From Piscinibacter caeni (GTDB taxonomy: Bacteria; Pseudomonadota; Gammaproteobacteria; Burkholderiales; Burkholderiaceae_C): a stretch of 55,808 bases of DNA. Both the position numbers and the translations under genes were made by a program. Of the stretch, positions 24,087 through 45,415 are shown piece by piece. Position 1 is the stretch's first letter; each line of letters opens with the position of its first letter. The stretch covers positions 1 through 55,808 of the forward strand of contig QJOU01000065.1 of the NCBI GenBank assembly GCA_003265685.1, given 5' to 3'. Below the pieces are notes generated by a model that was given only the letters and a program-made list of their open reading frames with translations, did no database searches and was not told the DNA's origin.

Positions 24087-24144
24087 GGCCGCTTGGTCGC
24101 GCGGCGCGGCCGGACCTGACGCCGCCGGTGTCACACTGCGTGCG

Positions 24145-29833: not shown

Positions 29834-31834
29834 ATGAATGCACTGCTGGCAGCGCAGTGGGCCCTGGTGCTCGGCGCCGTGGCGTGCCTGCTGCCGGTGG
29901 CCAACACGGTGCGGGCGCTGCTGGGCGTCGCGTCGCAGGCCGTGGCCATGGTGCTGGTCGGCTTCGCGGTCGTGCCGGTGCTGGCCGGTGGTCCGGTGCT
30001 CGCCGGCTCGTTGCCCTGGGCGCACCCGGTGGGCACGCTGAGCGTCCGCCTGGACGGGCTCGGCGCGTTCTTCCTGGCCTGGTCACTGCCGATGACGCTG
30101 CTGGGCAGCGTCTACGCGGCGGGCTACCTGCGCCGCCACTTCGACACGCCGCGCCACGTCGGCGTGCACTACGCGCTGCTGAACATGACGGCGCTGTCGT
30201 TCGTGCTGATCTACAGCGCCGACCATGCACTGGTGTTCCTGCTCGGCTGGGAGATCGCCGCGCTGGCGGCCTGGCTGCTGGTGATCTGGGACTACAGCAA
30301 CCAGAAGGTTCGCTTCGCCGGCTTCAACTACCTGGTGTCGACCCACATCGGGCTGATTTTCCTGGTGGCGGCCTTCATGATCCTGTACACGCACTCGGCG
30401 TCGTGGGACCTGGGCAGCTTCGGCCAATGGCTGCGTGCGCATCCGGGGTCGGAGCGCAACCTCGTCTTCCTGCTGCTGCTGACCAGCTTCGCGCTGAAGT
30501 CGGCCTTCTTCCCGGTGCACTCCTGGCTGCCGCGCGCGCATGCCGCCGCGCCGGCCCATGTGTCGGCGCTGATGTCGGGCGTCATCCACAAGGCCGGGCT
30601 GTATGCGCTGGTGCGCTTCGTCCTGCTGATGGGCAGGCCCGACGAATGGATGGGCTGGTTCCTGCTCGGCTTCGGTGCGCTGTCGGCGGTGATCGGTGCG
30701 CTCTACACCGTCAACCAGCGTGACCTGAAGCGTCTGCTCGGCTACTCCTCCACGGAGAACGTGGGCATCGCCGCGATGGGCCTGGGCGTGGGCTGCCTGG
30801 GCCTCGCCTGGGGCAATGCCACGCTGGCGGCGCTGGGCTTCGCCGGCGGGCTGATGCACGTGCTCAACCACGCGTTCTTCAAGTGCCAGCTGTTCTACGC
30901 CGCCGGCGCGGTGTACCAGGCCGCGCACGGCGTGGACATGGAGCGGCTCGGCGGCCTCGCGCGCCTGATGCCCTGGACCGCGCTGGGCTTCCTGGTCGGC
31001 GGCGTGGCGATCTCGGCGCTGCCACCGTTCAACGGATTCGCCAGCGAGTTCCTCGTCTACTCCGGTCTGTTCACCGACCAGCCGGTGCCGGTCTGGGCCA
31101 AGGTCGCGCTGGCCGCGGCCGGCGCGGCGCTGGCCTTCGTCGGGGCGCTGTCGGCGCTGAGCATCACGCGCGCCTTCGGCGTGGTGTTCCTCGGCTCGCC
31201 GCGCAGCCCCGATGCTGGACAGGTTCACGAAGTCGGCTGGTTCATGCGCCTGCCGCTGCTGCTGCACGGTGCGGGCGTGCTGCTGCTCGGCGTGGCGCCG
31301 GCCCTGGGGCTGGTCTTGGTCGAACCGACCGTGGCGCTGGCGCTGGCCGGCGTCCCCGGCGCCACAGGGCAGGAGCTTGCGGGCCTCGGCGCCACGCTCG
31401 GACGCATCGGCGCCGTCTCGGCCCTGCTCGTGGGCAGCGTGGCGCTGGTGTGGTGGTGGCGCCAAGCGGCCGGGCCGGTGTCGCAGCGCCATGTCACCTG
31501 GGGCTGCGGCTACACCGCCCCCAATGCGCGCATGCAGTACACCGGCTCCAGCTTCTCCTGGGACTTCAGCCAGCGTTTCCGCTCGCTGATGGTGCTGCTG
31601 AACCGCCAGAAGGCCCCGGACGGGTACTTCCCGCAGGACGCCTATGTCGTCACCGACTGCGTCGATGCGGTCGAGCGCCGGCTCTACAACGTGATCGGCC
31701 ATGGCGACAGCTCGGCGAAGGACGTGTCGCGCTGGCTGCGCGAAGACGATCCCCGCATCGCCTTCGCGGCCGGCCTCGTCGCGCTGGTCGCGATGGCCGG
31801 CCTGGTGGTGCTGGCCGGCGGACCCTTGCGCTGA
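29834..31834 (+). CDS. hyfB: HyfB-like proton-translocating membrane subunit, module A (NuoL family)
   Basis: A 666-residue antiporter-like subunit of a hydrogenase-4/complex-I-type membrane arm, with about 16 hydrophobic segments. Residues expected for proton translocation are present: Glu in FLLGWEIAALAAW (about 140), Lys in FALKSAFFPVHSWLPRAHAA (about 220) with the following SALMSGVIHKAGLYAL, and Lys in NQRDLKRLLGYSS. The C-terminal HyfB/HycC extension has WGCGYTAPNARMQYT. It opens the first module; its stop is 7 bp before hyfC. The name reflects family only, because the cluster has no NiFe site. Confidence 0.9.
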   Translation: MNALLAAQWALVLGAVACLLPVANTVRALLGVASQAVAMVLVGFAVVPVLAGGPVLAGSLPWAHPVGTLSVRLDGLGAFFLAWSLPMTLLGSVYAAGYLRRHFDTPRHVGVHYALLNMTALSFVLIYSADHALVFLLGWEIAALAAWLLVIWDYSNQKVRFAGFNYLVSTHIGLIFLVAAFMILYTHSASWDLGSFGQWLRAHPGSERNLVFLLLLTSFALKSAFFPVHSWLPRAHAAAPAHVSALMSGVIHKAGLYALVRFVLLMGRPDEWMGWFLLGFGALSAVIGALYTVNQRDLKRLLGYSSTENVGIAAMGLGVGCLGLAWGNATLAALGFAGGLMHVLNHAFFKCQLFYAAGAVYQAAHGVDMERLGGLARLMPWTALGFLVGGVAISALPPFNGFASEFLVYSGLFTDQPVPVWAKVALAAAGAALAFVGALSALSITRAFGVVFLGSPRSPDAGQVHEVGWFMRLPLLLHGAGVLLLGVAPALGLVLVEPTVALALAGVPGATGQELAGLGATLGRIGAVSALLVGSVALVWWWRQAAGPVSQRHVTWGCGYTAPNARMQYTGSSFSWDFSQRFRSLMVLLNRQKAPDGYFPQDAYVVTDCVDAVERRLYNVIGHGDSSAKDVSRWLREDDPRIAFAAGLVALVAMAGLVVLAGGPLR

Positions 31835-31841
31835 GGTCAGG

Positions 31842-32798
31842 ATGCGTACGCTGCTGATCGCCACCCACGTGCTGCTGATGCTGGCCATGCCCATCCTGAT
31901 GGTCGGCCTGGTCAACCGCACCAAGTCGTGGTGGGGCGGCCGGCGCGGCCCGCGGCTCGCGCAGTCGGCCTGGGACCTGCTGCGCCTGCTGCGCAAGCAG
32001 CCGGTGACGAGCCGGGTGACCACGCCGCTGTTCCGCGCCGGGGCCTGGGTGGTGCTGGCTGCCACGCTGCTGGCGGCCCTGGTGGCGCCGATGCTGGGGC
32101 CGGTGGCACCACTGCAGTTCGGTCGCGATTTCATCGTCTTCGCCTACGCCTTGGGGCTGGCCCGCCTGGCGCTGATGCTCTCGGCGCTGGACACCGGCAG
32201 TTCCTTCGAAGGCATGGGCACGGCGCGCGAGGCCTCGTTCACCGCCTTCATCGAGCCGGCGCTGTTCCTGCTGATCGGCAGCGCCGGCGTGGTCACCGGG
32301 CAGGCGAGCTTCGCGGGACTGATCGGGGGGTGGGGCGCGCACGCCGGCTTCGCGTGGCTGGCGGCGCCGGCCGTCGCGGTGCTGTTCGTGCTGCTGCAGG
32401 CCGAGGCCGCGCGCGTGCCGGTGGACGACCCGCTCACGCACCTGGAGCTCACCATGATCCACGAGGTGATGGTGCTCGACCACAGCGGCCCGGAGCTGGC
32501 CGCGATGCAGTACGCCGCCGCGGTGAAGATGACGCTGTACGCCGGCCTGATCGCCACGCTGCTCAACCCCTTCGACCCGCTGCGCGACCCGGTCCCGGCG
32601 ATCGCCGTCTCGGTGGCCCTGATGGCGCTGGTCGCGGTGGCGGTGGGCTGCGTCGAGTCGCTCGTCGCGCGGCTGCGCATGCGGCTCGTGCCGCGTTACC
32701 TGCTGCTGGCCACGGCAGTGGCGGGCGGCGCTCTGCTGCTGGCCGGCGTCCTGGGCGCCGGCGGGTTCGCGCCCGCCCTGGCCGGGGGCGTGAAGTGA
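31842..32798 (+). CDS. hyfC: HyfC-like membrane subunit, module A (NuoH family)
   Basis: A 318-residue NuoH-family subunit that would anchor the hydrophilic arm and form the quinone-site/E-channel junction. About eight hydrophobic segments; family blocks GTAREASFTAFIEPALFLL and ARVPVDDPLTHLELTMIHEVM are intact, including the conserved acidic residues. The ATG at 31842 follows an AGG-type site 7 bp after hyfB. Its stop overlaps the next GTG start (GTGA). Confidence 0.9.
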   Translation: MRTLLIATHVLLMLAMPILMVGLVNRTKSWWGGRRGPRLAQSAWDLLRLLRKQPVTSRVTTPLFRAGAWVVLAATLLAALVAPMLGPVAPLQFGRDFIVFAYALGLARLALMLSALDTGSSFEGMGTAREASFTAFIEPALFLLIGSAGVVTGQASFAGLIGGWGAHAGFAWLAAPAVAVLFVLLQAEAARVPVDDPLTHLELTMIHEVMVLDHSGPELAAMQYAAAVKMTLYAGLIATLLNPFDPLRDPVPAIAVSVALMALVAVAVGCVESLVARLRMRLVPRYLLLATAVAGGALLLAGVLGAGGFAPALAGGVK

Positions 32799-33412
32799 CC
32801 GCGGCGCTCGCGCTCTTCCTGCTGGCCGTGGTGGTGCCGGTGTTTTTCGGCAAGATCCGCTCGGCGCCCGCGTGGCTGGTGCTGCAGGCGCTGGCCCTGG
32901 CGGCCATCGGCTTCCTGCAGCATGCCCATGCCTCGGTGCATGCGCTTGCCGCACTGGCCGAGGTGCTGCTGGTGCGCGCCGTCGTCGCGCCCTGGCTGCT
33001 GCGGCGCGCCATCCGCCGGCATGCGGGCCCCGACCTGGACCTGATGCCCTCCAACCTCTTTGCCTGGGCGGTGGCCATCGCGTTGGTGGTGCTGGCCTTC
33101 GAGTTCGGCGCTCCGGCCGCCGACGACCGGCATGCGCTCACGCTGGGGGCGGTCGCGGCCACCGTCGCCGTGGCGCTGCTGCTGCTGGCCACCAGCAGCG
33201 CGGCACCGACGCAGCTGGTGGCCGTGCTGTACATGGAGAACGCGCTGGGCCTGTTCGAAACCCTGCTGCCCGAGCCCTGGCCGCTGCCGGTGCACGTGGC
33301 GCTGGGTCTCATCTACCTGGGCACGGTGGCGGTGGGCAGCTGGCTCATCGGGTCGCCCGACGTGGCCCCCGCTGTCGACGCTTCGGGCGCGCTCGAAGGA
33401 GAGACCCCGTGA
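32795..33412 (+). CDS. hyfE: HyfE-like membrane subunit, module A (NuoK-like)
   Basis: A 205-residue membrane protein with about six to seven hydrophobic segments. It carries the HyfE features PSNLFAWAVAIAL, SAAPTQLVAVLYMENALGLFETLLPEPWP with the conserved MEN-Glu region (residues kept short here), and GLIYLGTVAVGSWLIG. HyfE proteins replace NuoK plus part of NuoJ in the membrane arm. GTG start at 32795 overlaps hyfC; the stop overlaps the next GTG start. Confidence 0.82.
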   Translation: MTAALALFLLAVVVPVFFGKIRSAPAWLVLQALALAAIGFLQHAHASVHALAALAEVLLVRAVVAPWLLRRAIRRHAGPDLDLMPSNLFAWAVAIALVVLAFEFGAPAADDRHALTLGAVAATVAVALLLLATSSAAPTQLVAVLYMENALGLFETLLPEPWPLPVHVALGLIYLGTVAVGSWLIGSPDVAPAVDASGALEGETP

Positions 33413-34839
33413 CGGCCGCCGCCGCACCCGCCCCGACCGCGCCGCGCACGGCGGGCGCCGCGCGCCACGCGTGGATGGGTCCGGCCCTGGTCGTGATCGC
33501 GCTGGCGCTGCTGTGCGGCTGGTCGGTCTTCTACGCACGCACGTCGCTGGCCGACCTGCCGCTTTATTTTGCGGGCCGCTTCCTGGTGATCGACGCCACC
33601 TCGCTGCTGTTCCTGCTGGTGGTCAACGCGGTGTTCCTCGGTATCAGCGTGTACATGTCCTCGCGCGTCAGCAGCTCGCGCGTGCTGGCCGACAAGCTGC
33701 TGCCGCGCAGCGCACTCACGCTGGCGTTCATGCTGGCCATGAACCTGGGCCTGATGGCCAACCACCTGCTGCTGCTGTGGGCCTTCATCGAGCTCACCAC
33801 GCTGTGCCTGGCGCCGCTGGTGGCGCAGGGCGACGCGCTGGCGCCGCGCCGCGTGGCCTGGCACTACCTGCTGTACTCCAGCATGTCGCTGGCGCTGACC
33901 TTTATCGGGCTCATGTGCCTGACGCGTTCGGCGCAGCTGCAGGGCGTCGAGATGAGCTTCATGCTCGACGACATGGCCATCCCCGCCTCGGTCGACAGCT
34001 GGCAGCGCCTGGGCCTGGCCCTGATGCTGTTCGGCCTGGGCAGCAAGCTGGGCCTGGCGCCGCTGTATGCCTGGCTGCCCGAGACCTACGAGGCCGCGCC
34101 CACCAGCACCAGCGCGCTGCTGGCAGCGGTGCAGTTCAACATCAGCATCGTCATGGTGCTGCGCGTCCTGCAGGTCTTCCGCGGCCAGGACACCGGCTTC
34201 GTCGCCCACGAGCTGCTCATCATGGGCTGCCTGTCGCTCACGGTCGCGGCGGTGCAGGTGATGGCGGCGCGCAACTACAAGCGGCTGATCGCCTATGCCA
34301 GCGTGGCCTCGTCGGGGGTCATCGCCATCGGCCTGTCGGTGGGCCGTGCGGCGGCCTATGGCGTGCTGCTCTACGTGGTCAGCAACGCCTTCGTGAAGAG
34401 CCTGCTGTTCCTCACCGCCGGGCGGCTGCGCGCGGTCTACGGCACCAACGAGACGGCGCCGCTGGCGGGCGTGGTGCGGGTGCTGCCGTTCTCGGGCGCG
34501 CTGTTCGCGGTGGGCACCTTCGCGCTGCTGGGCTTTCCGCCGTTCGGCAGTTTCATGGCCGAGATGCTGATCCTCTCGGGCATCGTGCAGGCCGGCAACC
34601 TGGTGGCCTTCACGCTGATGTGCACCATGCTGACCATCATCTTCGTCGCCACCGGCCGGGCCATCTTCCCGATGCTGTGGAACCCGCCCGCGCAGCACCT
34701 GCCGCCGGTGCGGGAGACCTGGGTCACCGCGCTGCCCAAGCTGGGCTTCGTGACCGTGCTCGTGCTGCTGGGCGTGTACACGCCCGCGCCGATCAGCGAT
34801 CTGCTGGTGCAGGTGGCGCAGTCGATCGGAGGCCGCTGA
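33409..34839 (+). CDS. hyfF: HyfF-like proton-translocating membrane subunit, module A (NuoM/NuoN family)
   Basis: A 476-residue antiporter-like subunit with about 14 hydrophobic segments. Expected proton-path residues: Glu in LLLWAFIELTTLC, Lys in FGLGSKLGLAPLYAWLPETYE, and Lys in AARNYKRLIAYASVASSG. The N-terminal 25 residues are an Ala/Pro-rich extension before the first helix. GTG start at 33409 overlaps hyfE; the stop overlaps hyfG as TGATG. A second antiporter-like subunit beside HyfB implies at least two ion paths in this module. Confidence 0.88.
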   Translation: MTAAAAPAPTAPRTAGAARHAWMGPALVVIALALLCGWSVFYARTSLADLPLYFAGRFLVIDATSLLFLLVVNAVFLGISVYMSSRVSSSRVLADKLLPRSALTLAFMLAMNLGLMANHLLLLWAFIELTTLCLAPLVAQGDALAPRRVAWHYLLYSSMSLALTFIGLMCLTRSAQLQGVEMSFMLDDMAIPASVDSWQRLGLALMLFGLGSKLGLAPLYAWLPETYEAAPTSTSALLAAVQFNISIVMVLRVLQVFRGQDTGFVAHELLIMGCLSLTVAAVQVMAARNYKRLIAYASVASSGVIAIGLSVGRAAAYGVLLYVVSNAFVKSLLFLTAGRLRAVYGTNETAPLAGVVRVLPFSGALFAVGTFALLGFPPFGSFMAEMLILSGIVQAGNLVAFTLMCTMLTIIFVATGRAIFPMLWNPPAQHLPPVRETWVTALPKLGFVTVLVLLGVYTPAPISDLLVQVAQSIGGR

Positions 34840-36332
34840 TGCACGACATGGCAGGCCCGCACAAGCCGGTGATCATGCGCCTGACGCGTGAGCTGGCGCC
34901 GCTGGCACTGGCCGACTGGGCGGAGGCCATCGCGGCTGCGCTGCGCGCAGGCGACCGCGTGCTGTCGCTGTTCGGCCGCCGCGCCGGCAACGCGCAGACC
35001 GTGGTCACGGCCGTGCTGCTGCGCGCGGCCGGGGGTCTGGAGGTGCTGCGCGGCAGCGGCCGGCACGACGAGGGCTACCCGTCGCTGACGGCCCGTTTTC
35101 CCGCCGTGCAGGTGCTTGAGCGCGAGCTGTGGGAGCAGACCGGCCTCGTGCCGCAGGGTCACCCCTGGCTCAAGCCGGTGCGCTTCGAGGGCGAGCGCCA
35201 GCGGCGCATGCACGAGGTCCCGTTCTTCACGGTGCGCGGCCAGGAGGTGCACGAGGTCGGCGTCGGCCCCATCCATGCGAGCGTGATCGAGCCGGGGCAC
35301 TTCCGCTTCATGTGCCATGGCGAAACGGTCCACCACCTCGAGATCCAGCTCGGCTACCAGCATCGCGGCATCGAGGCCTTGATGCTGCAGCGTCCGCTGC
35401 CGGCACTCACGCCGCTGGCCGAGACCATCGCCGGTGACACCAGCATCGCGCACGCCTGGGCCCACTGCGCCGCCATCGAGGCCTTGGCCGGCGTCCAGAT
35501 GGATCCCGAGGTGGAGCTGGTCCGCGGCATCGCGCTGGAACTGGAGCGCATCGCGATGCACCTGGTGGCGCTCACCGGCCTGGCCACCGACATCGCCTTC
35601 CTGCAGGGCGGCGCTACCTACGGCCGGCTGCGCACCGCCATCATCAACGCCACGATGCGCGTGTGCGGCAGCCGCTTCGGGCGCGGCTGGCTGCGCCCTG
35701 GCGGCGTGCGGCACGGAATCACGCCGGAACTGCGCGCCGACCTCCTGAAGACCCTGGCCGCCTTCAGCCGCGACTTCGCCGAGGTCAACGAGTTGATGCG
35801 GGCCGCCCGCTCGGTGCAGTCGCGCTTTCAGGGCGTGGGCGTGGTCAGCCACCAGGCGGCGCAGGACATCGGCATGGTCGGGCTCGCGGCACGCGCCAGC
35901 GCGGTCGCGCTCGACACCCGGGCCAGCCTGCCGGGGCGGCTCTACGAGCGCCACCCGTCCGAACTGCTGATCGAACCCGGCGGCGATTGCTGGGCGCGCC
36001 TGGTGCTGCGCATGCGCGAGGTCGATGCGTCGCTGCGCTGGCTGGAGGCCGTGCTCGGCGGCGTGGACTCCCGGCTCGATGGCCACGCCTTGCAGCCGCC
36101 GGGCAGGGTCTATCCGGACACGCTGTGCGTCTCGGTGCGCGAAGGTTTCCGCGGGCCGGTGCTGCACGCGCTGGAGATCGGGCCCGACGGCCGGCTGCTG
36201 CACGTCAAGCTCCAGGATCCCTCGCTGTTCAACTGGTTCGGCCTGGCGCTGGCCGTGCGCAACAACGAGATCTCCGACTTCCCGATCTGCAACAAGAGCT
36301 TTGATCTCTCCTACTGCGGGAACGACCTGTAG
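34839..36332 (+). CDS. hyfG: HyfG-like large subunit, module A (NuoC-NuoD fusion, lacks NiFe ligands)
   Basis: A 497-residue fusion of a NuoC-like N-terminal domain (about 1-110) and a NuoD/[NiFe]-large-subunit domain (about 130-497). Family blocks VGPIHASVIEPGHFRF and YQHRGIEALM are clear. At about 194-203, where [NiFe] enzymes have RxCGxC, it reads ETIAGDTSIA, with no cysteine. The C-terminal DPCxxC is also absent; the protein ends SDFPICNKSFDLSYCGNDL. It therefore cannot bind the NiFe centre in the usual way and is closer to Ehr-type or complex-I proteins. Confidence 0.88.
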   Translation: MHDMAGPHKPVIMRLTRELAPLALADWAEAIAAALRAGDRVLSLFGRRAGNAQTVVTAVLLRAAGGLEVLRGSGRHDEGYPSLTARFPAVQVLERELWEQTGLVPQGHPWLKPVRFEGERQRRMHEVPFFTVRGQEVHEVGVGPIHASVIEPGHFRFMCHGETVHHLEIQLGYQHRGIEALMLQRPLPALTPLAETIAGDTSIAHAWAHCAAIEALAGVQMDPEVELVRGIALELERIAMHLVALTGLATDIAFLQGGATYGRLRTAIINATMRVCGSRFGRGWLRPGGVRHGITPELRADLLKTLAAFSRDFAEVNELMRAARSVQSRFQGVGVVSHQAAQDIGMVGLAARASAVALDTRASLPGRLYERHPSELLIEPGGDCWARLVLRMREVDASLRWLEAVLGGVDSRLDGHALQPPGRVYPDTLCVSVREGFRGPVLHALEIGPDGRLLHVKLQDPSLFNWFGLALAVRNNEISDFPICNKSFDLSYCGNDL

Positions 36333-36342
36333 GGGCTGCGCC

Positions 36343-37092: not shown

Positions 37093-37105
37093 GTGCCGGC
37101 GTCGA

Positions 37106-37888
37106 GTGCAACCCATCACCCTGCGACAGCCCGTGCCCGAAAGCCTCGATCCCGCCAAGCACGTCAAGCCCTTCGTCTACGAGTCGCTCACGCGCAAGGC
37201 GCTGCACTTCTCGATCGGCGAGATCCAGAGCCGCATGGACCTGCGCGACCCGTACGCGCTCGACCTGGAGTACACGCGCACGATGATGGCCTTCCTGCTG
37301 TTCGTGCCCGAGCCCGGGCAGATCGCGATGATCGGCCTGGGGGGCGGCTCGCTGGCCAAGTTCTGCCACCGGCACCTGCCGGGCACGCGCATCCATGTCG
37401 TCGAGATCAATCCGCACGTGATCGCGCTGCGCGACGAGTTCCACGTGCCGCCCGACGACGAGCGGTTCCGCGTGGTTCCCGGCGATGGCGCCCACTACGT
37501 GCGCCATCGCACCACGCGCTGCGACGTGCTGATGGTGGACGGCTTCGACAGTGACGGCCTGCCGGGCGGGCTGTGCTCGCAGCGCTTCTATGACGAAGCC
37601 TTCGAGCTGCTGCACCCCGGCGGCGTGATGGTGGTCAACCTGCACTTCGGGCACCGCGACCACGCGCGCCATGTCGAGCGGATCCGGCGCAGCTTCGCCG
37701 GTGCCGTGCTGGTCGTCGACGACAGCGACTGCAGCAACACCGTCGTCTTCGCCTGCAAGGGCCCCGCCATCGAACGGTTCAAGGCCGGCGTGGTGCGCCC
37801 GCCCAAGGGCCTGAGCAAGGACGCCGGCCGCCAGCTGCTGGCCGGGTTCGCGCGCGTGGCCTCCGCGTGGAAGCAGCAGTTCGGCTGA
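37106..37888 (+). CDS. Spermidine synthase-like class I methyltransferase-fold protein
   Basis: A 260-residue spermidine/spermine-synthase-like (PABMT) protein. The nucleotide motif IAMIGLGGGSLAKF is at about 72-85, followed by the acidic VVEINPHVIAL and DVLMVDGFDSDGLP. There is no fused decarboxylase or membrane domain. The GTG start at 37106 lies 13 bp after the ferredoxin/small-subunit stop, so it is probably cotranscribed with module A. A role in polyamine synthesis or in modifying the complex is equally open; its position between modules is unusual. Confidence 0.8.
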   Translation: MQPITLRQPVPESLDPAKHVKPFVYESLTRKALHFSIGEIQSRMDLRDPYALDLEYTRTMMAFLLFVPEPGQIAMIGLGGGSLAKFCHRHLPGTRIHVVEINPHVIALRDEFHVPPDDERFRVVPGDGAHYVRHRTTRCDVLMVDGFDSDGLPGGLCSQRFYDEAFELLHPGGVMVVNLHFGHRDHARHVERIRRSFAGAVLVVDDSDCSNTVVFACKGPAIERFKAGVVRPPKGLSKDAGRQLLAGFARVASAWKQQFG

Positions 37889-37901
37889 GCGCAGCGCTTC
37901 T

Positions 37902-37929
37902 TTGCGATGCACCTGGCGAGGAGTACCAT
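37902..37929 (+). promoter_or_regulatory. Candidate promoter for the RHH gene and second module
   Basis: TTGCGA (37902-37907), a 16-bp spacer and TACCAT (37924-37929) match -35 and -10 at four of six positions each. The surrounding spacer is AT-richer than flanking genes. Words GAGTACCAT, GTGCAT and TTCATCCAGTTG here resemble words before module A. Confidence 0.35.
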
Positions 37930-37968
37930 GTGCATGAAATCTTCATCCAGTTGTCATACCGAGGAGCC

Positions 37969-38199
37969 ATGGAGCTCAAGACCGCGCGACTGACGCTTCT
38001 CATCGATCCGAACAAGAAGGCGGCCTTCGAACGCCTGTGCGCGCAGCAGGACCTGACGCCGTCGCAGGTCGTGCGGCGCCTGATCCGCGACTACCTGGCG
38101 CACCATGGCGCAACCTACCAGCCCAGCGGGGCAGGCGACGAGGTGGACGAGGCCGCTGCGCGACCTGCCAAGCGCGGCCCCCGCTCACCGCAGGACTGA
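37969..38199 (+). CDS. Ribbon-helix-helix (CopG/Arc-type) protein
   Basis: A 76-residue protein: a basic/hydrophobic strand MELKTARLTLLID, then two helices (KKAAFERLCAQQ and TPSQVVRRLIRDYLAHH), the RHH fold of small DNA-binding repressors and antitoxins. The C-terminal 25 residues are disordered and acidic then basic. A GAGGAG ribosome site is 3-8 bp upstream of the ATG. No toxin gene is adjacent; the next gene is hyfB of module B, 19 bp on. A regulator of the hyf-like modules is the simplest reading. Confidence 0.75.
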   Translation: MELKTARLTLLIDPNKKAAFERLCAQQDLTPSQVVRRLIRDYLAHHGATYQPSGAGDEVDEAAARPAKRGPRSPQD

Positions 38200-38218
38200 A
38201 GCACACGGAAGCCGCGCG

Positions 38219-40231
38219 ATGAACCCGGCGCACTGGCTCGTCATCGACTGGATGATGGCCGTCGCCGTCGGCTGGGTCGTCGTCGGTGCGCTGGGCGTGG
38301 CGGCGCTTCACCGCCTGGGCTTCGTCGCCCATGTGCTGTTTCCCATCGGCGGCGTGCTCAGTCTGGCGCTGGCAGGTCTGTCGGCCGCGGCACTGCTGGG
38401 CACGCCCGAAACCGCCGTGCTGCCCCTCGGCCTGCCGGACCTGCCGTTGCACCTGCGCCTGGACAGCCTGGCCGCCTACTTCCTGCTTGTGATCGGTGCC
38501 GCCTCGGCCGGCATCTCGTTCTTCGCCGCCGGCTACTTCCGCAAGGGCGAGGGCACGCCGCCGGGCCTGCTGTGCCTGGAGTACCACGTGTTCCTGGCCA
38601 GCATGCTGGGCGTGGTGCTGGCTGACGATGCCTACGGCTTCATGGTGATGTGGGAGACGATGGCCTTGTCCTCGTACTTCCTGGTCACCGCCAACCACCG
38701 CGTGCCCGAGGTGCGCAGCGCGGGCTACCTCTACATCACGATGGCACGCGTGGGTGCCATCGCCATCCTGCTCACCTTCGGCGTGCTGCAGGCCAACACG
38801 GGCGACTACACCTTCGCCAACATGCGCGCCCAGCAGCTCACGCCGTTCTGGGCCTCGGTCGGCTTCCTGCTGGCCGTGTTCGGCTTCGGCGCCAAGGCCG
38901 GCATCCTGCCGTTGCACGTGTGGCTGCCCGAGGCGCATCCGGCCGCACCGTCACCGGTGTCGGCACTGATGAGCGGCGTGATGCTCAACACCGCCATCTA
39001 CGGGCTGTTGCGCGTCTCGATGGACCTGCTGCACCTGCGGCTGTGGTGGTGGGGCGCGCTGCTGCTGGCGGCCGGCCTGGCCACCGCGCTGTACGGCGTG
39101 ATCTTCGCCGCCGTGCAGACCGACATGAAGCGCCTGCTGGCCTATTCCTCGATCGAGAACATGGGGCTGCTGTTCGTCGGCATGGGCCTGACGCTGATCT
39201 TCGCCGGCTACGACATGAAGCCGATGGCCGCGCTGTCGCTCACCGCCACGCTGTACCACGTGGCCAGCCACGCGTTCTTCAAGAGCCTGCTGTTCCTGGG
39301 CACCGGCAGCGTGCTGCACGCCACCGCCGAGCGCAGCCTGGGCAAGCTGGGCGGCCTGATCCGCACCATGCCCTGGGTCGGCTGGTTCACGCTGCTGGGG
39401 GTGCTGGCCAGCGCCGGGTTGCCGCCGCTGGGCGGCTTCGTCTCCGAGTGGCTGCTGCTGCAGAGCTTCCTCTTCACGCCCGGGCTGCCGGTGCCGCTGC
39501 TGACGATGCTGATCCCGGTGGTGGCCGCGCTGATCGCGCTGGTGGCGGCGCTGGCCGGCTACACGATGGTGAAGTTCTTCGGCGTGATCTTCCTCGGTCA
39601 GCCGCGCGAAGAGAAGCTCGCCCAGGCCCACGACGCCGGCACGCGCGAGCGCATCGGCATGGGCTGGCTCGCGGCCGGCTGCCTGGGGCTGGGCCTGCTG
39701 CCGGTGCCCTTCATCACGCTGATCGATCCGGTCATCCGCCAGCTGGCCGGGGCCGGCCTCGCCGAGCGCGTGGCCACCAGCGGCTGGCTGCTCGCCCCGA
39801 ACAGCCTGGAGCAGGCCAGCTACGGCCCGGTGGTGTTCCTGCTCGGCATCCTCGGCAGCTTCGCGCTCGCCTTCTTGCTGGTGCGGCGGCTGTATCACGG
39901 CCGCCTGCGGCGCGGCATCCCGTGGGGCTGCGGCTTTCCCTGGGCCACGGCGCGCGCACAGGACACGGCTGAAGGCTTCGGCCAACCGATCCGGCAGATC
40001 TTCGAGCCCTTCTTCCAGATGACGCGCGAACTGCCGACACCCTTCGACGCGCAGCCGCGCTACCGGGTCGTCATCGAGGACCACTTCTGGCGCTGGCTCT
40101 ACCTGCCCATTGCCGACTTTGCCGGCACCCTGGCGCGCCTGATCGGCCTGATGCAGCAGGGCCGCATCGCGGTCTACCTGCTCTACAGCTTCCTCACGCT
40201 GGTGGCCACGCTGCTGGCCGTGATGCGATGA
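38219..40231 (+). CDS. hyfB: HyfB-like proton-translocating membrane subunit, module B (NuoL family)
   Basis: A 670-residue antiporter-like subunit. Expected residues: Glu in FMVMWETMALSSYF, Lys in GFGAKAGILPLHVWLPEAHPAA, and Lys in VQTDMKRLLAYSSIENMG with the following HAFFKSLLFLGTG. The C-terminal HyfB/HycC-type extension contains WGCGFPWATARAQDT and FWRWLYLPIADF. It is clearly a paralogue, not a copy, of the module A protein, so the modules diverged long ago or were acquired separately. Confidence 0.9.
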   Translation: MNPAHWLVIDWMMAVAVGWVVVGALGVAALHRLGFVAHVLFPIGGVLSLALAGLSAAALLGTPETAVLPLGLPDLPLHLRLDSLAAYFLLVIGAASAGISFFAAGYFRKGEGTPPGLLCLEYHVFLASMLGVVLADDAYGFMVMWETMALSSYFLVTANHRVPEVRSAGYLYITMARVGAIAILLTFGVLQANTGDYTFANMRAQQLTPFWASVGFLLAVFGFGAKAGILPLHVWLPEAHPAAPSPVSALMSGVMLNTAIYGLLRVSMDLLHLRLWWWGALLLAAGLATALYGVIFAAVQTDMKRLLAYSSIENMGLLFVGMGLTLIFAGYDMKPMAALSLTATLYHVASHAFFKSLLFLGTGSVLHATAERSLGKLGGLIRTMPWVGWFTLLGVLASAGLPPLGGFVSEWLLLQSFLFTPGLPVPLLTMLIPVVAALIALVAALAGYTMVKFFGVIFLGQPREEKLAQAHDAGTRERIGMGWLAAGCLGLGLLPVPFITLIDPVIRQLAGAGLAERVATSGWLLAPNSLEQASYGPVVFLLGILGSFALAFLLVRRLYHGRLRRGIPWGCGFPWATARAQDTAEGFGQPIRQIFEPFFQMTRELPTPFDAQPRYRVVIEDHFWRWLYLPIADFAGTLARLIGLMQQGRIAVYLLYSFLTLVATLLAVMR

Positions 40232-40247
40232 CGCACCCGGTGACGCC

Positions 40248-41195
40248 ATGAGCTGGACCGGAGCGCTTTCCCAACTGCTGGAGATCGTGCTCGCGATCGC
40301 GCTGGCGCCGATGCTCAGCGGGTGGGTGAACCAATGGCGTGCTTGGCTGCAGAACAAGTCCGCACCCAGCCTGTGGCAGCCCTACCGGATGCTGCACAAG
40401 CTGTTCGTCAAGGAATCGGTCGTCGCCGAGAACGCCTCGCGGCTGTTCCGCGCGGCGCCCTACATCGTCTTCGGCTGCATGGTGCTGGCCTGCGCCATCA
40501 TCCCGACGCTGTCGACCGATCTGCCGCTGGCGCCCGCCGCCGATGCCATCGCCCTGGTGGGCCTGTTCGCGCTGGCGCGCGTGTTCATCTCGCTGGCGGC
40601 GATGGACGTCGGCACCTCGTTCGGCACGCTGGGCGCGCGGCGCGAGATGCTGATCGGCTTCCTGGCCGAACCGGCGCTGCTGATGGTGCTGTTCTCGGCC
40701 TCGCTGATCTCGAAGTCGACCTCGCTGACCACCATCGTCGAGACGCTGGCGCACCGCGAACTGGCGATCTACCCCGGCCTGGCCTTCGCCGGCGTGGCCT
40801 TCACGATGGTCTCGCTGGCGGAGAACGCGCGCGTGCCGGTGGACAACCCGGCGACCCACCTCGAGCTGACGATGATCCACGAGGCCTTGATCCTCGAATA
40901 CTCGGGCCGGCACCTGGCGCTGATCGAGTGGGCGGCCAGCCTGAAGCTATTCGCCTATTCCTGCATCGGGCTGGCGCTGTTCTTCCCCTGGGGTGTGGCC
41001 GAGGCCCAGGCGCCGCTGGCCATGCTGCTGGCGCTGCCCGCGCTGGCCTTCAAGCTGGCCGTCGGCGGCTTCCTGCTGGCACTGCTGGAAGCGCTGTCGG
41101 CCAAGATGCGCATCTTCCGCGTGCCCGAGTTCCTGGCCACTGCCTTCCTGCTGGCGGTGATCGGCATGCTGGTGCACCTGCTGCTGGCCCGCTGA
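40248..41195 (+). CDS. hyfC: HyfC-like membrane subunit, module B (NuoH family)
   Basis: A 315-residue NuoH-family subunit with about eight hydrophobic segments. Family blocks SLWQPYRMLHKLFVKE, TLGARREMLIGFLAEPALLM and ARVPVDNPATHLELTMIHEAL are intact. Start at 40248 (MSWTGAL) is 16 bp after hyfB. It matches hydrogenase-4 component C proteins more closely than NADH dehydrogenase NuoH by the LAxxDVGTSFGTLGARRE region. Confidence 0.9.
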   Translation: MSWTGALSQLLEIVLAIALAPMLSGWVNQWRAWLQNKSAPSLWQPYRMLHKLFVKESVVAENASRLFRAAPYIVFGCMVLACAIIPTLSTDLPLAPAADAIALVGLFALARVFISLAAMDVGTSFGTLGARREMLIGFLAEPALLMVLFSASLISKSTSLTTIVETLAHRELAIYPGLAFAGVAFTMVSLAENARVPVDNPATHLELTMIHEALILEYSGRHLALIEWAASLKLFAYSCIGLALFFPWGVAEAQAPLAMLLALPALAFKLAVGGFLLALLEALSAKMRIFRVPEFLATAFLLAVIGMLVHLLLAR

Positions 41196-41199
41196 CATC

Positions 41200-41865
41200 A
41201 TGCAGATGAACACGCTGCTCACCCAGTTCGTCAACCTGCTCGGCGCGCTGCTGCTGATCCTGGCCTTCGCGATGATCGCCCAGCGCCGCATCCTGTCGCT
41301 GGTGCATCTGTTCACGGCCCAGGGCGCCACCCTGGCACTGGCCACGGCGGTGGTGGGTTATGTCACGCACCAGCCGCACCTGTACCTGTCGGCGGGAGTC
41401 ACCTTCGTGCTCAAGGTGCTGCTGATCCCCTGGCTGCTGCACCGGGTGATCGTGCGGCTGGACATCCGCTGGGAGCTGGAAAGCCTGATCAACATCCCGA
41501 CCACCATGCTGATCGGCATCGGGGTGGTGATCTTCGCCTTCAACCTCGCGCTGCCGATCTCGCAGCTGTCCAACACGCTGGCCAGCGGCACGCTGGGCAT
41601 CGCGCTGGCCTGCGTGATGCTGTCGTTCCTGATGATGATCACGCGCGCCAAGGCGGTGCCGCAGGTCATCGGCTTCCTGTCGATGGAGAACGGGCTGTTC
41701 TTCGCGGCCACCTCGGCCACCTACGGCATGCCGATGGTGGTGGAGTTCGGCATCGCGCTGGACGTGCTGATCGGCGTGCTGATCCTGGGCGTGTTCATGT
41801 TCCAGATCCGCGAGCAGTTCGACAGCCTGGACATCCGCCACCTGGAAAAGTTGAAGGAGGACTGA
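41200..41865 (+). CDS. hyfE: HyfE-like membrane subunit, module B
   Basis: A 221-residue membrane protein with about seven hydrophobic segments, carrying HyfE features: RILSLVHLFTAQGATLAL, PQVIGFLSMENGLFFAAT with the conserved SMEN segment, and a polar C-terminus LDIRHLEKLKED. Start 4 bp after hyfC; the next gene's TTG start follows 3 bp after its stop. Confidence 0.87.
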   Translation: MQMNTLLTQFVNLLGALLLILAFAMIAQRRILSLVHLFTAQGATLALATAVVGYVTHQPHLYLSAGVTFVLKVLLIPWLLHRVIVRLDIRWELESLINIPTTMLIGIGVVIFAFNLALPISQLSNTLASGTLGIALACVMLSFLMMITRAKAVPQVIGFLSMENGLFFAATSATYGMPMVVEFGIALDVLIGVLILGVFMFQIREQFDSLDIRHLEKLKED

Positions 41866-41868
41866 GGC

Positions 41869-43332
41869 TTGATCACGCTGGCCTGCCTGCTCGCGATCCC
41901 GCTGCTGGGTGGCATCGTGCTGGGCCTCGTGGGCCACCGCGACCGCGCGCGCGACCTCAACGTGGCCTTCAGCGCCGGCACCTTCGTCGCGGCCTGCGTG
42001 CTCACGGCGGAGGTGGTCGCCGAGGGGCCGATGCTGCTGTGGGACCGCGAGTTCTACATCGACGCACTGAACGTCTTCCTCGTCACGCTGACGGCCTTCG
42101 TCGGCCTGACGACCTCGATCTTCTCGCGCCCCTACATGCGCGTGGAGCGCGACCACGGCAAGATGACCCCGCCGCGGCTGCGCCTGTACCACAGCATGTA
42201 CCAGCTGTTCAACTTCACGATGCTGCTGGCGCTCACCACCAACAACCTGGGCCTGGTGTGGGTGGCGATGGAGGCGGCCACGCTGTCGACGGTGCTGCTG
42301 GTCAGCGTCTACCGCACCGCCGCCAGCCTGGAGGCGGCGTGGAAGTACTTCATCCTGTGCGGCGTGGGCATCGCGCAGGCGCTGTTCGGCACCGTGCTGC
42401 TGTACATGGCGGCCGAGAAGGTGATCGGCGCCGAGATGGGCGGCGCGCTGCTGTGGACCAACCTCGACGCGGTCAAGGCGCAGCTCGACCCGAACATCAT
42501 CACCCTGGCCTGGGCCTTTCTCTTCATCGGCTACGGCACCAAGGTGGGCCTGGTGCCGGTGCACAACTGGCTGCCCGACGCCCATGCGGAAGGCCCGACG
42601 CCGGTGTCGGCGGTGCTGTCGGGCCTGCTGCTGAACGTGGCGCTTTACGCGGTGCTGCGCTGCAAGGTGCTGACCGACGGCGCGCTGGGCGGCAACGCGC
42701 TCACCGGCGGGCTGATGATGGGCTTCGGCCTGGTGTCGGTGGTGGCGGCGGTGTTCTTCATCATCCGCCAGCGCGACGTCAAGCGCATGTTCGCCTACTC
42801 GTCGATCGAGCACATGGGCATGATGACCTTCGCCTTCGGCATGGGCGGCCCGATCGCGAGCTTTGCCGGGCTGCTGCACATGACCGTGCATTCGCTGATC
42901 AAGTCGGCGATCTTCTTCGCCGTCGGCCACGCGACGCAGAAGGCCGGCTCGCAGATCATGGACGAGATCCGCGGCCTGATCCGCGTCAGCCCCACGGTGG
43001 GCTGGGGCCTGATGCTCGGTGCGCTGGCCATCCTGGGCATGCCGCCCTTCGGCGTGTTCGCCAGCGAGTTCCTGATCGTCACCACCGCCATGCGCGACCA
43101 CCCCTGGGCCACGCCCTTCCTGCTGATCGCGCTCGGCGTGGCGTTCGCCTCGGTGTTCAGCCGCGTGCAGCCGATGGTGTTCGGCGAGACCACGCTGAAG
43201 GCCCTGGCCCATCCGCCCGCGCTCATCCCGGTGTTCGTGCACCTCGGGCTCGGGCTGATGCTGGGCCTGTATATCCCGCCCTACCTCGATGCCTGGTATC
43301 GGCAGGCGGCGGCCATGCTGGGAGGGGGCTGA
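41869..43332 (+). CDS. hyfF: HyfF-like proton-translocating membrane subunit, module B
   Basis: A 487-residue antiporter-like subunit with about 14 hydrophobic segments. Proton-path residues: Glu in VWVAMEAATLSTV, Lys in IGYGTKVGLVPVHNWLPDAHA, and Lys in RQRDVKRMFAYSSIEHMGM followed by HSLIKSAIFFAVGH. The start is TTG at 41869 (AAGGAGG ribosome site about 7 bp before), giving a hydrophobic N-terminus; no ATG is available in frame nearby. Confidence 0.9.
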   Translation: MITLACLLAIPLLGGIVLGLVGHRDRARDLNVAFSAGTFVAACVLTAEVVAEGPMLLWDREFYIDALNVFLVTLTAFVGLTTSIFSRPYMRVERDHGKMTPPRLRLYHSMYQLFNFTMLLALTTNNLGLVWVAMEAATLSTVLLVSVYRTAASLEAAWKYFILCGVGIAQALFGTVLLYMAAEKVIGAEMGGALLWTNLDAVKAQLDPNIITLAWAFLFIGYGTKVGLVPVHNWLPDAHAEGPTPVSAVLSGLLLNVALYAVLRCKVLTDGALGGNALTGGLMMGFGLVSVVAAVFFIIRQRDVKRMFAYSSIEHMGMMTFAFGMGGPIASFAGLLHMTVHSLIKSAIFFAVGHATQKAGSQIMDEIRGLIRVSPTVGWGLMLGALAILGMPPFGVFASEFLIVTTAMRDHPWATPFLLIALGVAFASVFSRVQPMVFGETTLKALAHPPALIPVFVHLGLGLMLGLYIPPYLDAWYRQAAAMLGGG

Positions 43333-43336
43333 CGCC

Positions 43337-44884
43337 ATGCCGCTGGCCAGCCTCGGGCGGCAGACCCGTCGACTTTCCGCCCCGCTGCCGATCTGGCACG
43401 CGCAGGCCGATCGCACGCAGTGGTCCAGCGCCGCCGCGCGGCTGGCGGCGGCCGGCGGCCGGCTGGTGGCGCTGTGGGCCGGCGAGCGACCGGCCACCGG
43501 ACCCGATGCCACCGCCGTCCACGCGGCCCTGGCCGGCGACTTCGGCCTGCTGTGGCTGGAACTCCCGCTGGCCGCCGGCGAGGCCTACCCCGACCTCTCG
43601 ACCTCCTTCACCTGTGCCGGCCGGATGCAGCGCGCCGCGGCCGACCTGAGCGGGGTGCACGCTGCGGGCGCGGCCGATACCCGCCCCTGGCTGGACCACG
43701 GTCTGTGGGGCGGCAGCGCCCCGCTGCGCCCAGGCTCGACGGCGGCCGGTGCGGCGCCGGACGTGCTGCCCGCGGACTATGCCTTTGTCCGGGTCGAAGG
43801 CGATGGTGTGCACGAGATCCCGGTCGGCCCGGTGCACGCCGGCATCATCGAGCCGGGGCACTTCCGCTTCTCGGTGGTGGGCGAGAAGGTGCTGCGCCTG
43901 GAAGAGCGCCTGGGCTACAAGCACAAGGGCATCGAACGCCGGTTCACGACACTGCCTGCACACGAAGGCCACCGGCTGGCCGGTCGTGTCAGCGGCGACT
44001 CGACGGTGGCCTACGCCTGGGCCTACAGCATGGCGCTCGAAAGCGCGGCCGCGGTCGAGATCCCCGAGCGCGCGGCGTGGCTGCGCGCGCTGATGCTGGA
44101 GCGCGAGCGCGTGGCCAACCACCTGGGCGACCTGGGCGCCCTGGGCAACGATGCGGCCTTCGCCTTTGGCCTGGCGCAGTTCTCGCGGCTGCGCGAGGAC
44201 TGGCAGCGTCTGTCGAAGGACCTGTTCGCGCACCGCTTCATGATGGACGCCGTCGTCCCCGGCGGCGTTGCGCTCGACCTCGACCTGGCAGCGCGTGACC
44301 GCCTGCGCGCGCAGTGCGACGCCATCGAGCGCGAGCTGCGCGTGCTGCGTGGCATCTACGACGAGCACGCGGGCCTGCAGGACCGCTTCATGACCACGGG
44401 CCGCGTGCCGCGCGAACTGGCATTGCGCCTGGGGCTCACGGGTCTGGCCGCGCGCGCCAGCGGCCTGACGCAGGACCTGCGCGCGGACTTCGGCCTGAAG
44501 CCCTATGGCGACCTCGGCAGCAAGGCCTGCGTGCGCCCGGAAGGCGACGTGGCGGCCCGGGTGGCGGTGCGTTTCGACGAGGTGTTCGTTTCGCTGCGCC
44601 TGATCCGCGACCTGTGCGCCCGGCTGCCGACGGGCGAGACGAAAGTCGACGTGCCGCTTCCGGACACGCCGCAGCAGGGCCTCGGCTGGGTGGAAGGCTG
44701 GCGCGGCGAGGTGCTGGTGGCGCTCGAGCTCGGCCCGGGCGGGCGCATCCTGCGCTGCCACCCGCACGACCCCTCCTGGCAGAACTGGCCGGTGCTCGAG
44801 CATGCGGTGATCGGCAACATCGTTCCCGACTTCCCGCTCATCAACAAGTCGTTCAACCTCAGCTATTCGGGGCAGGATCTCTAG
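43337..44884 (+). CDS. hyfG: HyfG-like large subunit, module B (NuoC-NuoD fusion, lacks NiFe ligands)
   Basis: A 515-residue fusion of a degenerate NuoC-like domain (about 1-145) and a NuoD/[NiFe]-large-subunit domain (about 150-515). It has IPVGPVHAGIIEPGHFRF and YKHKGIERRF. At the proximal NiFe motif it reads RVSGDST (217-223) against RVCGIC in hydrogenases: both ligand cysteines are replaced, by Ser in the best alignment. The C-terminus DFPLINKSFNLSYSGQDL lacks DPCxxC altogether. Start 4 bp after hyfF, stop abutting the small-subunit start. Confidence 0.9.
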   Translation: MPLASLGRQTRRLSAPLPIWHAQADRTQWSSAAARLAAAGGRLVALWAGERPATGPDATAVHAALAGDFGLLWLELPLAAGEAYPDLSTSFTCAGRMQRAAADLSGVHAAGAADTRPWLDHGLWGGSAPLRPGSTAAGAAPDVLPADYAFVRVEGDGVHEIPVGPVHAGIIEPGHFRFSVVGEKVLRLEERLGYKHKGIERRFTTLPAHEGHRLAGRVSGDSTVAYAWAYSMALESAAAVEIPERAAWLRALMLERERVANHLGDLGALGNDAAFAFGLAQFSRLREDWQRLSKDLFAHRFMMDAVVPGGVALDLDLAARDRLRAQCDAIERELRVLRGIYDEHAGLQDRFMTTGRVPRELALRLGLTGLAARASGLTQDLRADFGLKPYGDLGSKACVRPEGDVAARVAVRFDEVFVSLRLIRDLCARLPTGETKVDVPLPDTPQQGLGWVEGWRGEVLVALELGPGGRILRCHPHDPSWQNWPVLEHAVIGNIVPDFPLINKSFNLSYSGQDL

Positions 44885-45415
44885 ATGTGGCAAATCCTGC
44901 GGCAGATCGCGCGCACCGGCATCGTCACCGAGCCGGCGCCGGCCGCCGACGATGCGATGCGCGTCGAGGCCTCGCGCATCCAGGCCGAGATCCTCGGCGT
45001 CCTGGGCCAGGCGTTGACGATCCGCGAGGTCGACGCCGGTTCGTGCAACGGCTGCGAGCTCGAGATCAACGCCGTCAACAACCCCTACTACAACCTCGAG
45101 GGCCTGGGCATCAAGTTCGTGGCCAGCCCGCGCCATGCCGACATGCTGCTGGTCACCGGGCCGGTGTCGCGCCACATGGCCGAAGCCCTGCGGCGCACCT
45201 ATGACGCCACGCCCGAGCCCAAGCTGGTGGTTGCCGTGGGCGACTGCGGCTGTTCGGGCGGCATCTTCGGCGCGAGTTACGCCAGTTGCGGACGCGTGGC
45301 GGACGTGATCCCGGTGGACGTGGAGGTGACGGGCTGCCCGCCCGAGCCGATCGAGATCCTGCGCGGCATCCTGACGGCGGTGAACCGGCGCGACGGCCGA
45401 GGTGGCCGGCCCTGA
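44885..45415 (+). CDS. hyfI: HyfI-like small subunit (NuoB family), module B
   Basis: A 176-residue NuoB/HyfI-type subunit with the [4Fe-4S] ligands Cys54 and Cys57 (SCNGCE), Cys121 (GDCGCSGG, with Cys123 nearby) and Cys151 (TGCPP). Unlike module A's small subunit there is no ferredoxin domain and no separate HyfH/NuoI gene follows, so module B lacks its own electron-input clusters. It begins on the base after the hyfG stop and ends the cluster, converging on the dpp-type operon. Confidence 0.9.
   Translation: MWQILRQIARTGIVTEPAPAADDAMRVEASRIQAEILGVLGQALTIREVDAGSCNGCELEINAVNNPYYNLEGLGIKFVASPRHADMLLVTGPVSRHMAEALRRTYDATPEPKLVVAVGDCGCSGGIFGASYASCGRVADVIPVDVEVTGCPPEPIEILRGILTAVNRRDGRGGRP

Follow-up and report, generated by a model that had tools for sequence, protein, structure and literature searches.

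Two Hyf-type gene sets in Piscinibacter caeni

The stretch of DNA analysed here (the window) comprises 55,808 nucleotides from Piscinibacter caeni (assembly GCA_003265685.1, contig QJOU01000065.1, positions 1–55,808 of the forward strand). Gene calls and family scans showed two consecutive six-gene sets, M1 (29834–37092) and M2 (38219–45415), both on the + strand and both in the order HyfB-C-E-F-G-I, as had been described in an initial annotation made from the sequence. Subunits are designated by letter and set number (G1, G2, etc.; Table 1). Family matches also confirmed the reported four antiporter-like, two NuoH-like, two NuoCD-like and two NuoB-like subunits. The Proton_antipo_M domain was found in B1, F1, B2, and F2 (E values 1e-38 to 7e-53, Pfam scan), and since E values in these scans reach 2e-270, chance matches are no concern. 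B1 and F1 matched NCBIfam models of the hydrogenase-4 B/F type, but below the cut-offs. The Pfam scan gave no match for E1; an E1-like gene was present at the same position in most M1 loci mapped.

Table 1. Genes of M1 and M2 and accessory genes between them (feature and length in amino acids, position in the window, strand, best match or basis)
B1, HyfB-like antiporter subunit, 666 aa	29834..31834	+	Proton_antipo_M 2.5e-52
C1, HyfC/NuoH-like membrane anchor, 318 aa	31842..32798	+	NADHdh 1.3e-24
E1, HyfE-like, 205 aa, GTG start	32795..33412	+	position; 25% identity to E2, E 6e-10
F1, HyfF-like antiporter subunit, 476 aa, GTG start	33409..34839	+	Proton_antipo_M 1.1e-38
G1, HyfG/NuoCD-like large subunit without NiFe ligands, 497 aa	34839..36332	+	Complex1_49kDa 5e-30
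HI1, 2x[4Fe-4S] ferredoxin fused to NuoB/HyfI-like small subunit, 249 aa	36343..37092	+	Oxidored_q6 5e-25, Fer4 matches
Spermidine-synthase-like gene, accessory, between M1 and M2	37106..37888	+	Spermine_synth 3.8e-9
RHH_9 ribbon-helix-helix regulator, accessory, directly upstream of B2	37969..38199	+	RHH_9 1.3e-22
B2, hydrogenase-4 subunit B-like antiporter subunit, 670 aa	38219..40231	+	NF005086 6e-269, over cut-off
C2, HyfC/NuoH-like membrane anchor, 315 aa	40248..41195	+	NADHdh 3e-34
E2, HyfE-like, 221 aa	41200..41865	+	NF008556 hydrogenase-4 membrane subunit 3e-24, under its cut-off
F2, hydrogenase-4 subunit F-like antiporter subunit, 487 aa	41869..43332	+	NF005045 2e-270, over cut-off
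G2, HyfG/NuoCD-like large subunit without NiFe ligands, 515 aa	43337..44884	+	Complex1_49kDa 8e-32
I2, NuoB/HyfI-like small subunit without ferredoxin domain, 176 aa	44885..45415	+	Oxidored_q6 1.6e-31

Judged from their sequences, M1 and M2 are Ehr-type (hydrogenase-related) modules and not hydrogenases, because the four cysteines that ligate the nickel-iron (NiFe) site and the C-terminal extension are missing in both large subunits; the initial annotation had likewise called the sets Ehr-type. In the alignment, C241/C244/C531/C534 of Escherichia coli HycE were replaced by A/T/S/G in G1 and by S/S/S/G in G2, and neither protein contains the CGIC and DPCxxC ligand motifs of group 4a hydrogenases. 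The C-terminal extension of hydrogenases beyond the last ligand is cut off by a protease. HycE and HyfG of E. coli carry a 35-residue tail after DPCYSC that is absent from G1 and G2, both of which end three residues past the position of HycE C534. That the sets encode true group 4 NiFe hydrogenases (hydrogenase-4 or formate hydrogenlyase-2) is thus extremely unlikely. The nearest solved relative of G1 by sequence is indeed HycE of formate hydrogenlyase (7z0s_E), which also ranked first, before complex I subunits, in a fold search with the predicted G1 model, and genomes with M1 often carry NiFe hydrogenases elsewhere. However, the metal-binding cysteines are gone, there is no extension to process, and three M1 genomes (G135, G143, and G292) showed no match to the hydrogenase family PF00374, so M1 does not need a NiFe hydrogenase.

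In an alignment of G1-type proteins from Pseudomonadota to Riflebacteria, GD at the first motif and C-NKSF-L-SYCG-DL at the end showed no variation (36/36), and since these replacement motifs do not vary the former metal site is maintained rather than decaying. NKS was kept in all 35 large-subunit tails inspected (1 M1-type and 34 M2-type). C484 and C493 form an invariant cysteine pair of G1 near the former metal site; the corresponding positions are Ile and Ser in G2, and several M2-type tails have Cys at the first of them. Four further HycE residues were compared, with roles as given in the available passages of PMC9474812, and statements on published work below refer in the same way to the passages available from each source. 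D529 corresponds to Asp in G1 but to Asn in G2, S283 to Met in G1 but to Asn in G2, and the equivalents of E193 and R478 are retained in both. The predicted G1 model had a mean pLDDT (predicted local distance difference test score) of 83.8, with values below 50 at residues 144–152, 485–488 and 490–497; the geometry of the site was not derived from this model because of the low-confidence tail.

Amino acid identity between M1 and M2 was 34% for B, 35% for C, 25% for E, 27–28% for F, 36% for G and 47% for HI/I. These values (25–47%) rule out a recent tandem duplication, including the recent exact copy considered with the initial annotation, and by sequence comparison the two sets are anciently diverged. 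A quick tree of 117 large subunits placed 79 M1-type and 36 M2-type rows on separate sides (Shimodaira–Hasegawa-like approximate likelihood ratio test 100 and 95), apart from HycE/HyfG, although rows had been labelled by the better BLAST query, so that the separation is partly built in. This tree was midpoint-rooted without a complex I outgroup and carries a warning of long branches meeting; locus L126 showed a very long branch.

The two sets also differ in the small subunit. Both had been annotated as containing a HyfI-type protein, which is correct for I2, a plain NuoB/HyfI-like protein, whereas HI1 is a HyfH-HyfI fusion. Residues 38–76 of HI1 contain two [4Fe-4S] ferredoxin motifs, N-terminal to the NuoB-like domain, and the halves match separately to MbhN/HycF (ferredoxin part) and MbhJ/HycG (NuoB part). 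Of the 12 cluster cysteines of HI1, 10 were invariant and two nearly so in 27 sequences from different phyla. The fused gene adjoined the G1-type gene in 11/11 further genomes of the family found with G1 as the query (≥57% identity), a count that is independent of the ferredoxin domain as a query, and it was whole even in genome G338, where only a remnant of M1 is present. I2-type proteins lack the ferredoxin domain and were 171–178 aa long in 14/14 M2 loci listed. The small-subunit motif of HI1 is of the spaced CNGC hydrogenase kind, compared to the paired Cys described for complex I (PMC9474812). Large and small peripheral subunits with an N2-type cluster motif are encoded separately in each set. 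On this sequence evidence, M1 is a variant with a built-in ferredoxin arm and M2 is of the known kind.

A NuoH-like anchor and two antiporter-like subunits are likewise present in each of the modules. The Glu of transmembrane helix (TM) 5, the Lys of TM7 and several further ion-path residues were retained in B1, B2, F1, and F2. B1 keeps the TM7 Lys, which HyfB and B2 also have and for which HycC has Leu, and the equivalents of HycC E135, K336, E391 and C537. E128, K213, K291, and K330 of F1 are common to F2, HyfF, B1, B2, and HyfB, and many charged columns of C1 are shared with C2, HyfC and HycD. With most ion-path residues kept, redox-coupled ion transport is predicted for both sets from sequence only. 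By its likeness to HycC, B1 may also have a C-terminal ND3-like extension.

Occurrence and linkage of M1 and M2

Among 399 genomes of the family, a G1-type gene was found in 12 (P. caeni included), besides the remnant in G338. M2-type genes (33–38% identity to G1; weaker matches of 30–33%, E 1e-37 to 1e-42, were excluded) were counted by eye in about 48 genomes; both modules were present in nine, and about 38 carried M2 without a full M1. With the M1 ferredoxin domain as the query, a search of named genome contigs yielded 84 relatives, and the best 80 loci, which by construction carry the fused ferredoxin domain, were kept. These were mostly from Betaproteobacteria, with two gammaproteobacterial bins and loci from Myxococcota, Planctomycetota, Acidobacteriota, Spirochaetota and Riflebacteria. 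The order B-C-E-F-G-HI was retained wherever the flank sufficed, except in the broken or degraded loci L069, L086, L126 and L134. A sample of 200 genomes of the phylum contained M2-like genes and no further M1-type G1, and no other long match exceeded 39% identity. Two records deserve separate mention. One titled as a Bifidobacterium breve metagenome-assembled genome (L093) contained M1 genes 64–75% identical to those of the window and is probably a mis-binned contig. Near the end of plasmid 3 of Variovorax sp. PBL-E5 (L004, 36048–37464), a spermidine-synthase-like fragment, a ribbon-helix-helix (RHH) gene and a 42-residue HI1-like fragment follow one another in a row, perhaps a decayed further copy.

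Whether both modules always occur together had been raised with the initial annotation, and they do not. When 50 M1 genomes (among them G411 with a remnant only, and some overlapping with the family sample) were checked over the whole genome for an M2-type G2 at ≥57% identity, M2 was present in 34 and not found in 16. The latter include the isolates Quisquiliibacterium transsilvanicum and two Extensimonas (99% complete); most of the others are incomplete bins, for which absence is less sure. In 29 further M1 genomes, mostly from distant phyla, M2 was found in four, and four others had a 42–45% match that was left unclassified. On the G1 tree, at least 13 switches of M2 presence and at least 10 of linkage were counted, with L126 and rows shorter than 380 aa excluded; the unlinked rows include fragmented assemblies, so these counts lean high.

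In 18 of the 38 genomes with both modules, M1 and M2 shared a contig at a distance of up to about 22 kb, or ran across a contig end (L057, L126). The locus maps showed head-to-tail arrangements in 6/80 and convergent ones in 10/80, and in genome G404 the modules are divergent and about 16 kb apart. The tandem arrangement of the window was also seen on Variovorax sp. PBL-E5 plasmid 3 and in records of Aquabacterium, Piscinibacter, Ramlibacter and Rubrivivax. Such closeness by chance would be rare, about 1% per genome of 3–7 Mb by our estimate. That nearly half of the genomes with both modules have them close together, in three arrangements, suggests linked roles, and M1 and M2 probably serve one physiological state. 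A contig of Rhodoferax sp. STA_46 (L070, 3404–18000; genome G412, contig C58) has M1 facing a divergent M2 at 1.5 kb. This M2 showed 39–64% identity and fell outside the branch of the window's M2 in the 117-row tree, and an ordinary second M2 lies about 22 kb from M1, giving three Ehr-type sets close together; because the adjoining M2 is the divergent one and the ordinary M2 is farther off, the pairing here seems to have arisen with another partner.

The initial annotation had allowed for either two separate pumps or one larger complex with paralogous halves. The tandem records and the close linkage would fit the latter. However, each module is found without the other, orientations and distances vary, each has its own anchor and peripheral subunits, and M2 presence has switched repeatedly on the G1 tree, even if incomplete assemblies may inflate that number. 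Because M1 occurs without a detectable M2 and M2 without a full M1, two separate complexes are favoured, and a single complex is very unlikely.

Neighbouring genes, candidate redox partners, and mechanism

Sixteen genes around M1 and M2, part of the open reading frames of the window, were scanned. None was a maturation, formate dehydrogenase or NADH-module gene, as the initial annotation had also stated, and the NuoEFG module of complex I was found neither among them nor in M1 or M2. Since true NiFe hydrogenase large subunits are encoded on other contigs of the same genome (C61, C100, C34, and C94), NiFe maturation genes are probably present elsewhere in it. The closest upstream genes are GDT1-like, Tex and an HI0933-like flavoprotein gene (23995–25416, about 4.4 kb upstream of B1), the only redox-type gene among the 16; genes of acyl-CoA metabolism lie further upstream, and an oligopeptide ATP-binding cassette (ABC) cluster lies downstream of M2. 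A DUF4331 protein is encoded at 53917–55491 (E 5e-145).

Neighbouring genes were clustered for 23 and then for 82 loci (groups in at least four loci). The groups recurring in the 82 loci were RHH_9 (16), methionyl-tRNA synthetase (12), a sigma-54-type regulator (9, named by eye), spermidine-synthase-like proteins (8) and ABC transport ATPases (8), the last being the only scanned flank genes of the window that recur beside M1 elsewhere. In a tblastn search of 80 M1 loci, 23 had the RHH gene and nine had the spermidine-synthase-like gene, showing that clustering undercounts. The commonest M1 neighbour is the RHH_9 regulator, which lies near B1 or ahead of B2 and may be on either strand. The short spermidine-synthase-like gene was seen near M1 in the window and in L004, L056, L060, L065, L071, L081, L082, L089, L092 and L126. 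A palindrome upstream of B1, ATACGAGTAT, was considered as a shared operator and dropped, as its pattern occurred in only 1/64 M1 and 0/15 M2 upstream regions, no more often than in shuffled sequences.

Co-occurrence was examined in 63 hand-picked family genomes, of which 13 carried M1 (G338 included), 20 carried M2 alone and 30 had neither module. Matches over the cut-off to TIGR03710, a 2-oxoacid oxidoreductase that reduces ferredoxin, were found in 11/13, 15/20, and 11/30, respectively (any Ehr vs. neither, p = 0.0009; M1 vs. neither, p = 0.007; uncorrected). Rnf (E ≤1e-60) occurred in 2/13, 1/20, and 0/30 and gave no useful association. Ferredoxin is therefore the best-supported candidate donor for M1, from its anatomy first and from the weak TIGR03710 association second.

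We consider it rather probable, from comparison of the sequences, that the window encodes two separate Ehr-type membrane complexes of the complex I superfamily, M1 being a ferredoxin-oxidising ion pump and M2 a complex of the same architecture. M1 would oxidise a low-potential donor, most likely reduced ferredoxin, and electrons would pass through the ferredoxin arm with its two [4Fe-4S] clusters to the N2-type cluster and from there to an acceptor located where the NiFe site has been remodelled, possibly a quinone or else a small molecule or dithiol. This redox step would drive export of H+ or Na+ through B1 and F1. In M2, electrons would have to enter or leave near the single N2-type cluster via a soluble partner.

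Several results weigh against this proposal. The G1 model is unreliable exactly at the former metal site, and B2 has lost two charged positions (Asn at HycC K239, Ser at D354). No oxidoreductase recurred beside M1 or M2 in the clustering of 23 and 82 loci, in line with the initial annotation, which saw no formate dehydrogenase or NADH-oxidising module beside the sets. TIGR03710 failed to separate M1 from M2-only genomes (p = 0.68), and its p values are corrected neither for kinship nor for the four families tried, in a hand-picked sample. Formate dehydrogenase (E ≤1e-200) showed no association either (10/13, 14/20, and 18/30; M1 vs. neither, p = 0.49). NiFe hydrogenases (E ≤1e-50), by contrast, were enriched in M1 genomes (10/13, with 8/20 in M2-only genomes, vs. 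7/30 with neither; p = 0.002), so that a tie of M1 to H2 metabolism stays in play. Finally, the linkage counts are non-independent through kinship, and many of the assemblies used are incomplete.

Two further explanations concern the same complexes. M1 and M2 might be ion-pumping ferredoxin:quinone or donor:quinone reductases with an evolved quinone site like that of complex I. In the alignment, the positions of the complex I quinone residues, which we take to be numbered Tyr87 and His38, were Gly and Ile in G1, and this, together with the hydrogenase-like spacing of the small-subunit motif (contrast from PMC9474812), makes such an activity doubtful. It keeps a modest probability all the same, as the superfamily is shared, the equivalents of HycE E193 and R478 are kept in both modules, and the complex I pocket is itself described as an altered NiFe site (PMC9474812). 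The modules might instead be ion channels or antiporters whose peripheral arm acts as a redox or ligand sensor without catalytic turnover, which would agree with the absence of a recurring partner enzyme beside the genes and with the antiporter-like residues kept. The cluster ligands of HI1 are, however, conserved across phyla, a better fit to electron transfer, and a sensor would in our view hardly need a three-cluster wire; we regard this as quite unlikely.

Relation to known systems and implications

Ehr complexes consist of NuoL-, NuoH-, HyfE- and NuoN/M-like subunits and a large and a small subunit. All of these are found in M1 and M2, E1 being assigned by position and a weak match to E2, and G1 and G2 are homologues of group 4 hydrogenases without CxxC ligands. 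Four Ehr subunits are named in PMC7894505. The complexes described from Geobacter (GSU0739-45), Nitrospira, ammonia-oxidising archaea and Margulisbacteria likewise have a group-4-hydrogenase-like arm without the NiFe-binding CxxC, and NuoL-like and HyfE-like membrane subunits (PMC7894505, PMC10284858, PMC10432482, PMC6349859). Those of comammox Nitrospira and ammonia-oxidising archaea have no role assigned in the passages available (PMC10284858, PMC10432482), and in Geobacter, Ehr abundance was reported to be higher on formate than under conditions with hydrogen (PMC7894505). Elsewhere, formate dehydrogenase has been put forward as a partner of Ehr (PMC6349859), whereas no such association was seen in the 63 genomes. 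Compared to these descriptions, M1 differs in that its small subunit includes the ferredoxin part as a fusion and in having two invariant cysteines near the former metal site, and the locus differs by two different sets lying side by side.

M2 corresponds to a gene cluster that has been described before, with no function known. The hyfBCEFGI cluster of Cupriavidus metallidurans CH34 and C. eutrophus H16, for which a role in lithotrophic growth was judged very unlikely (PMC2864759), comprises the same six genes as a single set, whereas M2 adjoins M1 here; a region of the CH34 genome matches G2 at 67.7% over its full length. Nitrospira also has hyfBCEFGI (PMC5596200). The initial annotation had allowed for a described cluster family of known function; such a family exists in part, for M2, and has no known function. 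No description of the ferredoxin-NuoB fusion clade or of the M1/M2 pairing was found in the literature searched, mostly without subscription journals.

M1 and M2 share subunit types B, C, E, F, G, H, and I with E. coli hyf/hyc, with HycE as the best solved match. Unlike these systems they lack the NiFe ligands and the processed tail, and no HyfA, HyfD, HyfJ or HyfR genes were found inside or between the two sets; the best E. coli subunit matches were 22–45% identical, with none for E1. Like M1, MBH and MBS of Pyrococcus combine a ferredoxin-type subunit with an antiporter-like membrane arm, but the ferredoxin subunit MbhN of MBH is a separate chain. G1 was closer to MbhL (6cfw_L, 3e-28) than to 6u8y_L (4e-16), presumably the MBS chain. 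MBS is a relative that catalyses a reaction other than H2 turnover (PMC9474812). Complex I has homologues in M1/M2 for NuoD, NuoB, NuoH and NuoL/M/N, and is distinguished by its NADH module and by the two quinone residues not kept in G1; a separate 49-kDa match that is far stronger lies on contig C4 of the P. caeni genome.

Ehr complexes mark an acknowledged gap between hydrogenases and complex I, their role being reported in the passages available as not known or never studied (PMC10284858, PMC10432482, PMC7894505). Unlike a plain Ehr set, M1 with its built-in ferredoxin arm names a testable donor, and isolate carriers make clean deletion tests of each pump possible: in Extensimonas and Quisquiliibacterium M1 was found but M2 was not, and Hydrogenophaga taeniospiralis and Aquabacterium humicola have both. 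A bolder proposal, to which we give only a slim chance, is that M1 represents a distinct phylum-crossing class of energy-converting ferredoxin oxidoreductases, with the former NiFe site turned into a redox site around C484/C493 and the NKSF-x-L-SYCG-x-DL tail, paired with M2. If so, M1 and M2 would be ion pumps of different driving force that share one electron circuit.

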